Origin: a virus
Virus record (IMG/VR): IMGVR_UViG_3300010151_000128
Span: 1-26,330 of that record
DNA length: 26,330 nt
Direction: 5' to 3' (one strand)
The notes below the pieces were generated by a model. That model ran no database searches. It saw only the letters and a program-made list of their open reading frames with translations, and was not told where the DNA came from. Below are positions 20,841 to 22,346 of this stretch, one piece after another (within the stretch, counting starts at the first letter, position 1; the number at the start of each line of letters is the position of its first letter). Position numbers and translations under genes: made by a program.

Positions 20841-21191
20841 ATGACCAACAATAAAGTTTCCATCAGCACAAAGAGTAGCATGTCTTATAAAGAATATATC
20901 AAAGCAGGAATGGGTATATTATCTACTCGGCTGTCTTTGCGAATATATAAAACTGCATCTAAAGACGAATATCCGATATTTGAAAGGGGTAGGGACATTC
21001 GGGTTAAATTCTTTTGGGACAAAACTCCCATTTATGAATTTATAACCGACACCACTTTCTTTTATCAAAGAAACACAAACAAAGAAGATAGAATCCATAT
21101 GCGAGGGTGGGCGGATCTGAAACTTAGAATGCTTGAAGATGCTATTGAAAGAGGGAAAGAGGCATCTAAAAAGAACAAGAAAAATGGATAA
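20841..21191 (+). CDS. Small protein of unknown function
   Basis: 116 residues, not recognised. The N-terminus holds a Ser/Lys-rich start, then SYKEYIKAGMGILSTRLSLRIYK, a central strand-like DIRVKFFWDKTPIYEFITDTTFFY, and a basic C-terminal helix ending KEASKKNKKNG. There are no cysteines, signal peptide or membrane segment. The ATG at 20841 has only a weak purine tract in front, so it may be translated by readthrough from gp46, 17 bases upstream. Its end overlaps the next gene by eight bases. Its position between gp46 and RNase H suggests early or middle expression, but no function can be stated. Confidence 0.75.
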   Translation: MTNNKVSISTKSSMSYKEYIKAGMGILSTRLSLRIYKTASKDEYPIFERGRDIRVKFFWDKTPIYEFITDTTFFYQRNTNKEDRIHMRGWADLKLRMLEDAIERGKEASKKNKKNG

Positions 21192-21489
21192 AGTAAGTAA
21201 ATATAAAAGATATAATCCGGATGGTACTCTAAAAGTTTATCATAAGGATGATATTGTAAATTGGCATGGCGACACATTCGTCGCCACAAAAACTGTTTCT
21301 GGTTATGAACCGGATGAGGGGGAGGAATATGGATGGAATTTTATAAACGATAAAGAATCCATAAACCACTCCTCTCGAACTGCACCACCACCCAACCCCA
21401 ATCACGGTGATGAATGGTTGGATACTACCACAGGTTTGTTGATGAAATACATCGATGATGGATTTAATAAGCAGTGGGTCGAATTTTAA
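21184..21489 (+). CDS. Small two-module protein, structural-module-like
   Basis: 101 residues from the ATG at 21184; the frame extends upstream, but that overlaps the preceding gene. The first half, KVYHKDDIVNWHGDTFVATKTVSGYEP, then WNFI, has the pattern of a carbohydrate-binding-module-like repeat (GDxVxxxGxxYxA). After a proline-rich linker (TAPPPNPNHG) comes GDEWLDTTTGLLMKYIDDG and QWVEF, a motif that I know from phage tail and fibre proteins. Both modules are usually found in virion proteins, so their presence alone in a small gene among recombination genes is odd. It could be a virion decoration or a fibre-related accessory. The upstream AAGAACAAGAAAA tract is a weak ribosome site. Confidence 0.75.
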   Translation: MDKVSKYKRYNPDGTLKVYHKDDIVNWHGDTFVATKTVSGYEPDEGEEYGWNFINDKESINHSSRTAPPPNPNHGDEWLDTTTGLLMKYIDDGFNKQWVEF

Positions 21490-21506
21490 AATGAAGGAAT
21501 ATTGAA

Positions 21507-22346
21507 ATTATATTAATTGATAACAACCAGATCATGTTATCGTGTATTTTTCAGTTAATGGAATCAGAAGGTGAAATTAACAAAGAGATGCTACGACATC
21601 TGATATTAAATTCTTACAGAGTATATAAAAAGAAATTTGGAAAAGAATACGGAGAACTTGTCATTTGTAATGACAGCAAAGGTTCTTGGAGAAGAGAATT
21701 CTTCCCACAATATAAACAAAACAGAAAAGATAAAAGAAAATCTGATTCATTTGACTGGAATAATATTCATTCTTTGTTTGATGAATTGAGAATAGAATTT
21801 AAAGATACATTCCCATATAAGAACATTTCGGTTGATGCAGTAGAGGCCGATGATATTATTGCAATCTTATGCAGACATTATTATCAGGAAGAAAAAATGA
21901 TGATTGTGTCTTCAGACAAGGACTTCCAGCAATTACAACTGCTCAGTGGCATATCTCAATGGAGTCCATTACAGAAAAAAATGGTAGAGTGTGAAAATCC
22001 TAAAATATTTTTATATGAGCATCTTCTCCGAGGAGATCGAAGTGATGGTGTTCCAAACGTCTTGTCTGACGATGATACTTTTGTTGTTAGTGATAAGAGA
22101 CAAAAGAGGATGACAAAGAAAGTCGTCGCATCATTGTTTGAGGAAATTAAGTCTGGTGATATAGAAAAGCGAGATAATTGGAAGAGGAACAACAGACTTA
22201 TTAATCTTTTTGAAATACCAGAAGACACAGAGTCTAATATAATCGAAGAGTTCAGAAAAGAACTGGCGGGAAATCGAGGAAAAATTTTAAATTATTTTAT
22301 CAAAAATAAACTATCAACTTTAATGGAGGTCATAGAAGAGTTTTAA
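21507..22346 (+). CDS. rnh: RNase H / 5'-3' exonuclease, likely AUU start
   Basis: 279 residues if started at ATT 21507 (T4 RNase H: 305). It removes RNA primers and flap DNA on the lagging strand. Matches to T4: EMLRHLILNSYRVYKKKFG, WRREFFPQYKQNR, SVDAVEADDIIAIL (metal acids), MIVSSDKDFQQL, GISQWSPLQKKMV, LRGDRSDGVPN and IEEF at the end. The first ATG is at 21534 (MLSCIF), but the frame upstream reads ILIDNNQI, which matches the T4 LIDFSQIAL segment with its metal-binding Asp. No ATG, GTG, TTG or CTG exists in frame there. An AUU at 21507 lies eight bases after AAGGA (21494-21498) and would give M-I-L-I-D. The alternatives are translation from 21534 without the Asp, or an error in the sequence. 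Confidence 0.85.
   Translation: MILIDNNQIMLSCIFQLMESEGEINKEMLRHLILNSYRVYKKKFGKEYGELVICNDSKGSWRREFFPQYKQNRKDKRKSDSFDWNNIHSLFDELRIEFKDTFPYKNISVDAVEADDIIAILCRHYYQEEKMMIVSSDKDFQQLQLLSGISQWSPLQKKMVECENPKIFLYEHLLRGDRSDGVPNVLSDDDTFVVSDKRQKRMTKKVVASLFEEIKSGDIEKRDNWKRNNRLINLFEIPEDTESNIIEEFRKELAGNRGKILNYFIKNKLSTLMEVIEEF

Follow-up and report, generated by a model that had tools for sequence, protein, structure and literature searches.

Bacterial genes known to start at AUU are, to our knowledge, few; among phages, gene 26 of T4 has an internal AUU start. The Escherichia coli gene infC, which encodes IF3, starts at AUU, the mechanism being discrimination of IF3 against this codon (PMC5472188), and E. 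coli pcnB is listed as a further gene with an AUU start (Binns and Masters 2002, as cited in PMC13009471). In Staphylococcus aureus, cvfC1 has a conserved AUU and a strong, extended Shine-Dalgarno sequence, and the non-canonical starts tested there gave approximately 10% of the reporter expression obtained with AUG (PMC13009471). The AUU start of Borrelia burgdorferi pncA (BBE22) restores an N-terminal catalytic aspartic acid that is lost in the annotated start (PMC13398362). In Streptomyces, sigR has a GTC start behind a very strong ribosome-binding site and is repressed by IF3 (PMC5472188).

The 5' end of the RNase H gene in the window

The window, by which we mean the whole stretch of 26,330 nucleotides that was analysed (IMG/VR record IMGVR_UViG_3300010151_000128), carries an RNase H gene whose reading frame extends above its first canonical start codon. 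RNase H is the phage enzyme that removes RNA primers. The features of the site are listed below.

21184..21489, + strand: upstream gene, 101 aa, with its stop codon 17 nt ahead of the AUU; ribosomes that re-initiate could come from it
21491..21505, + strand: short ATG frame (MKEY, then a stop), absent from other AUU lineages
21492..21494, + strand: in-frame TGA closing the RNase H frame upstream
21494..21498, + strand: Shine-Dalgarno sequence AAGGA, 8 nt before the AUU (duplex energy -5.7 kcal/mol)
21507..21509, + strand: putative AUU start codon, in alignment with the ATG start of RNase H from other phages (comparison)
21507..22346, + strand: T4-type RNase H (rnh) coding sequence as read from the AUU, 279 aa, M-I-L-I-D-N-N-Q (Pfam 5_3_exonuc_N and RNaseH_C; phmmer and Foldseek)
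21519..21521, + strand: GAT codon for the metal-binding Asp, equivalent to T4 Asp19 (alignment; 3h8s is the D19N structure)
21534..21536, + strand: first canonical in-frame start, ATG (MLSCIF), five codons past the Asp; not conserved as first start

The initial annotation had reported no ATG, GTG, TTG or CTG from the in-frame stop at 21492-21494 to position 21534, and this was confirmed base for base: after the TGA the frame reads AGG AAT ATT GAA ATT ATA TTA ATT GAT AAC AAC CAG ATC ATG. The placement of AAGGA (21494-21498) eight bases ahead of ATT 21507 is correct, and the short ATG reading at 21491-21505 is present as described. Positions 21487-21509 read TAA-A-ATG AAG GAA TAT TGA-A-ATT, a four-codon frame that is found in the window's lineage only, is separated by one base from the upstream stop on one side and from the AUU on the other.

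Analysis of the encoded protein revealed both family domains above the curated Pfam cut-offs, with 64.7 bits for 5_3_exonuc_N (cut-off 34.3) and 51 bits for RNaseH_C (cut-off 25). The T4 RNase H structure 1tfr was matched end to end by phmmer at E=1e-39. In this alignment the frame above 21534 encodes the first strand and the equivalent of T4 Asp19, which upholds the view that it is the counterpart of the T4 N-terminus with its essential Asp; GAT 21519-21521 aligns with the residue that is changed from D to N in 3h8s, the D19N structure of T4 RNase H. The acidic motifs EADD and SSDKDF are present together with the metal-binding Asp that ends the first strand, and this first Asp is found only in the AUU-started reading. 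A structure model built from the AUU start places residues 2-5 in the first strand, with a mean pLDDT of 86 over residues 1-10; the six PDB structures that match it best are all of T4 RNase H (TM about 0.7), at a moderate overall pLDDT of 68.5. Judged by domain, alignment and fold comparison, the window gene is a T4-type RNase H of the 5'-nuclease family. A start at 21534 would cost the protein its first strand and its Asp19 equivalent.

Start codons among relatives of the window gene

The comparison rested on 261 distinct RNase H genes whose 5' ends could be read, collected by seven protein-guided scans of the viral collection and one DNA pattern. At codon position -4 relative to the Asp, 202 of these genes have ATG, 37 have ATT (72 loci), 13 have GTG and seven have TTG, and ATA and CCT occur once each; ATC never appears at this position (0 of 261). 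The lone CCT has a GTG adjoining. The lone ATA belongs to L192 and the identical proteins of L191, L194, L195 and L197, which have one extra codon from start to Asp, with ATT at -5 behind GAGGTGCA and ATA at -4; the start of this group has apparently shifted by one codon and yet is still AUU. The nearest AUU relatives of the window are L154 (72% protein identity) and L155 (69%), and lineages at 48-55% identity are also among the AUU genes. The initial annotation had proposed comparing the same site in related phages. That comparison reveals ATT recurring where others have ATG, at the same codon in 36 further distinct relatives, and makes the AUU start at 21507 the best-supported reading.

Most ATT genes are without any canonical in-frame start upstream, the exceptions being the L005/L387/L390 type, L111, L171, L181 and L312. 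Genes of the L005/L387/L390 type have an in-frame GTG (in L390/L391 an ATG too) 9-11 codons above the AUU, whereas their relative L396 has none, and L111 has a GTG three codons above. Outside the window's clade, AUU stands at the same codon in L312, L326, L330 and L111 (DMNQ, DYSG and DFNQ types), and three of these four have a strong Shine-Dalgarno sequence.

Codon usage around the site was compared within the AUU group. ATT is present at codon -4 in all 28 non-redundant members, codon -3 is ATT in 15 and ATA in 13, and codon -5 is free (AAA, GTT, AAC, GAA and others); in the gene bodies of the same group isoleucine is encoded by ATT 333 times, by ATA 227 times and by ATC 173 times. When AUU genes were compared in ten pairs over the ten codons starting at -3, 28 differences were synonymous and 4 non-synonymous, none of them at a second codon position, which indicates that the stretch above the first ATG codes for protein. 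In many AUU genes an in-frame stop lies only a few codons from the AUU (three in L189). These comparisons suggest that RNase H is very probably translated from AUU 21507; initiation at the -3 codon (AUA or AUU) instead is formally possible. Mechanistically, we infer that ribosomes initiate with fMet at AUU 21507: the Shine-Dalgarno sequence AAGGA would set this codon in the ribosomal P site, and the initiator fMet-tRNA would pick the AUU because it has been placed there. The product of such a start would have a complete first strand and the metal-binding Asp.

In the window and seven genome records of related phages, a survey was made of 358 genes that each had an orthologue in two or more other records; RNase H was the only one whose homology reaches beyond every canonical start, and it does so in one genome after another. 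General use of AUU in these eight genomes was considered and rejected, as the other flagged cases could be put down to a gap in the assembly, an ORF that is cut short and one whose reading is ambiguous. The idea of an unusual initiator tRNA encoded by the phage was likewise rejected, as ARAGORN found only elongator tRNAs and one tmRNA-like match in three AUU genomes and the window.

The AUU start is also found in a cultured phage, Synechococcus phage BUCT-ZZ01 (ON615601.1; host S. elongatus PCC 7942), which carries ACAAGGAGAATCAAA-ATT-ATA-CTC-TTA-GAC at this site. Here the Shine-Dalgarno sequence AAGGAG is followed by AUU AUA CUC UUA GAC, and no canonical start is present from the in-frame stop to the Asp. 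The deposited record gives a 'hypothetical protein' from a GTG five codons past the Asp (L428:413-440); as read from the sequence, the AAGGAG-AUU start restores the catalytic Asp to the RNase H of this phage. In nine further isolates that were examined, a canonical codon (ATG, GTG or TTG) occupies the AUU position or adjoins it. In Synechococcus phage S-CAM3 (KU686198.1, L426:410-500) the RNase H is annotated 30 codons short, and an upstream ATG with the conserved MIIIDMNQ is present. Standard gene calling strips the catalytic Asp from the AUU-started RNase H enzymes. A DNA-level search among isolates gave no match, and no close relative was found among host genomes in GTDB contigs.

A lone contig without a start codon would normally point to an assembly or sequencing error, or to a recent mutation, that spoiled an ordinary ATG, and the short ATG frame at 21491 lies nearby. 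However, the identical site is present in a second, separately deposited contig (L002; 6,687 bp matched with one mismatch), which may stem from a related sample and is therefore weak evidence alone, and ATT is found in the 36 other distinct genes, drawn from many metagenome data sets and a cultured phage. Since AUU recurs in lineages diverged to 48-72% protein identity, the sequencing error that the initial annotation had weighed is excluded, and an explanation by error or recent mutation is almost certainly wrong. Translation from the downstream ATG at 21534, giving a truncated product that lacks the first strand and the Asp, has in its favour that this is the first canonical codon and that gene callers pick such codons, as in the BUCT-ZZ01 record. 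Yet the codons above it are conserved as coding, the first canonical codon differs in place in every AUU genome, the model has residues 2-5 in a strand at high confidence, and the Asp that would be lost occupies the T4 Asp19 position; the downstream start is thus very unlikely.

The position of the upstream gene, which in most of the lineages examined stops 11-21 nt short of the AUU, bears on two further explanations. One is that the N-terminus is made by ribosomal frameshifting, either from the upstream gene or, as the initial annotation had considered, from the short ATG frame at 21491. The closeness of the upstream stop in many lineages, the end of the window's short frame one base before the AUU and a U-run at the upstream stop of L003 would agree with this, but the RNase H frame of the window is closed by the TGA at 21492-21494, past the end of the upstream gene. 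Moreover, the upstream gene occurs in all three relative frames across the AUU lineages: it shares the RNase H frame in L154, L086, L162 and L178, the window, L003 and L085 have it in a second frame, and L005 has it in the third. As the upstream frames are inconsistent and the 21491-type ATG is missing in L085 and L086, a shift from the short reading is excluded, and frameshifting from either source is extremely improbable. Fusion with the upstream gene was also rejected because of the inconsistent frames between AUU lineages. The other explanation is termination-reinitiation, a recognised route in polycistronic operons (PMC2268962), in which ribosomes ending the upstream gene would restart at the AUU and the start would be mainly a coupling device; the 11-21 nt distance in many lineages is consistent with it. 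However, the sister AUU group L166/L181/L206 carries a sigma-70-like promoter of its own, 18-19 nt upstream of the AUU, with room left for GAGGTGCAAC-AUU, and thus a short leader with a Shine-Dalgarno sequence and no upstream gene on the transcript. Re-initiation as the main explanation is therefore unlikely; it could add to initiation at the AUU but does not replace it. The four-codon frame of the window could pass re-initiating ribosomes to the AUU.

Shine-Dalgarno sequences, promoters and the rate of initiation

For the AUU start at 21507 and its relatives, Shine-Dalgarno sequences were scored as the duplex energy with the 16S 3' end over the 18 nt upstream, and -5 kcal/mol or better was taken as strong. 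In the window's clade (the D-N-N/S-Q clade; 33 AUU and 79 ATG genes scored), a strong Shine-Dalgarno sequence is present in 31 of the 33 AUU genes versus 4 of the 79 ATG genes, and in 71 of the 218 other genes of the same loci (33-37%). The Fisher p values, which ignore common descent, are 8e-12 for AUU genes against their neighbours and 8e-10 for the depletion in ATG genes against theirs. Matches in AUU genes include AGGAG, AAGGA, TAAGGA and GAGGT at a spacing of 5-8 nt; L086 and L220 have weak ones. On a tree inferred from 208 sequences with the start codon left out, the AUU label needs at least 12 changes, six of them forced by well-supported branches, so that gains or losses of AUU have been numerous. 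When independent pairs are taken from well-supported branches, 3.5 speak for the link between AUU and a strong Shine-Dalgarno sequence and 0 against it (p about 0.125, an underpowered comparison), and the association after allowing for descent is suggestive.

Analysis of the ATG members of the clade revealed a TTGAC-TATAAT-type promoter ending 5-8 nt before the ATG in 30 of 79 (0.01 expected from shuffling), an arrangement from which a leaderless mRNA is predicted. Loci with such leaderless-type promoters include L200, L203, L204, L215, L224, L282-L285, L351, L353, L366 and L410. The same promoter is found close before the RNase H ATG in L073 and L076, which lie outside the clade. It also recurs in the sister AUU group, there at the distance of 18-19 nt given above.

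RNase H genes thus combine either a strong Shine-Dalgarno sequence with a weak codon or an AUG with little or no Shine-Dalgarno sequence, as expected if a low rate of initiation is selected. Inefficient initiation at AUU would result in a low rate of RNase H synthesis. The earlier proposal that the rare start keeps the amount of enzyme low fits this trade-off between start codon and Shine-Dalgarno sequence, and it seems reasonably probable that low yield is a selected property of the AUU start.

The AUU start of RNase H should, like other AUU starts, be sensitive to the level and fidelity of IF3. By analogy with those genes, dependence on IF3 in the host may regulate RNase H, a suggestion that we make tentatively and hold to be possible rather than probable. 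No IF3 gene was found in the 20 related phage records searched, and a phage-encoded IF3 was rejected on this basis. Repression by IF3 has been reported for non-canonical starts, for leaderless mRNAs and for re-initiation without a Shine-Dalgarno sequence (PMC2268962), which makes an IF3 dependence shared by all three start types possible, if speculative. RNase H initiation might then be kept on IF3-repressed routes, by AUU with a strong Shine-Dalgarno sequence, by a leaderless AUG, or by an AUG without a Shine-Dalgarno sequence near an upstream stop. We regard this wider proposal as doubtful; if true, RNase H synthesis would be tied to IF3 and ribosome state in infection through repeated, different sequence solutions.

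Comparison with known AUU starts

Overall, a conserved AUU start that holds RNase H translation low looks like the best reading of the comparisons. In a literature search that covered a minority of the subscription journals, no report of an AUU start in a phage RNase H was found, and we know of no case of recurrent gain and loss of AUU across a phage clade. In a widespread clade of T4-like phages, a core gene of replication appears to use AUU in dozens of lineages, and the RNase H of this clade alternates between AUU with a strong Shine-Dalgarno sequence and AUG without one. With a cultured cyanophage on a model host, start-codon weakness as a selected control of expression becomes directly testable.

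By its sequence-level features, all of which are present, the phage RNase H belongs to the same type as infC, pcnB, Borrelia pncA and cvfC1. With Staphylococcus cvfC1 it shares a conserved AUU and a conserved strong Shine-Dalgarno sequence; cvfC1 is an experimentally mapped cellular gene of low expression, whereas the phage RNase H is a replication gene known by comparison. It resembles pncA in that a truncated annotation loses a conserved Asp that the AUU start restores, although pncA is a single gene on a bacterial plasmid, for which a crystal structure and biochemical proof exist, and the phage case is one of sequence comparison. E. coli pcnB, as listed in the citing report, is a different gene, with translation limited by AUU as is proposed for phage RNase H. 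T4 gene 26, also a different gene, would be a phage precedent for an AUU start. The sigR gene is similar in its non-canonical start and strong ribosome-binding site, and its product is harmful in excess; it differs in that its codon is GTC with IF3 control demonstrated, whereas in the phage RNase H the codon is AUU and control by IF3 would follow by analogy. The infC gene likewise has an AUU start and is autoregulated because its product is IF3 itself, whereas the phage product is a nuclease and the 20 related phage records searched are without IF3.
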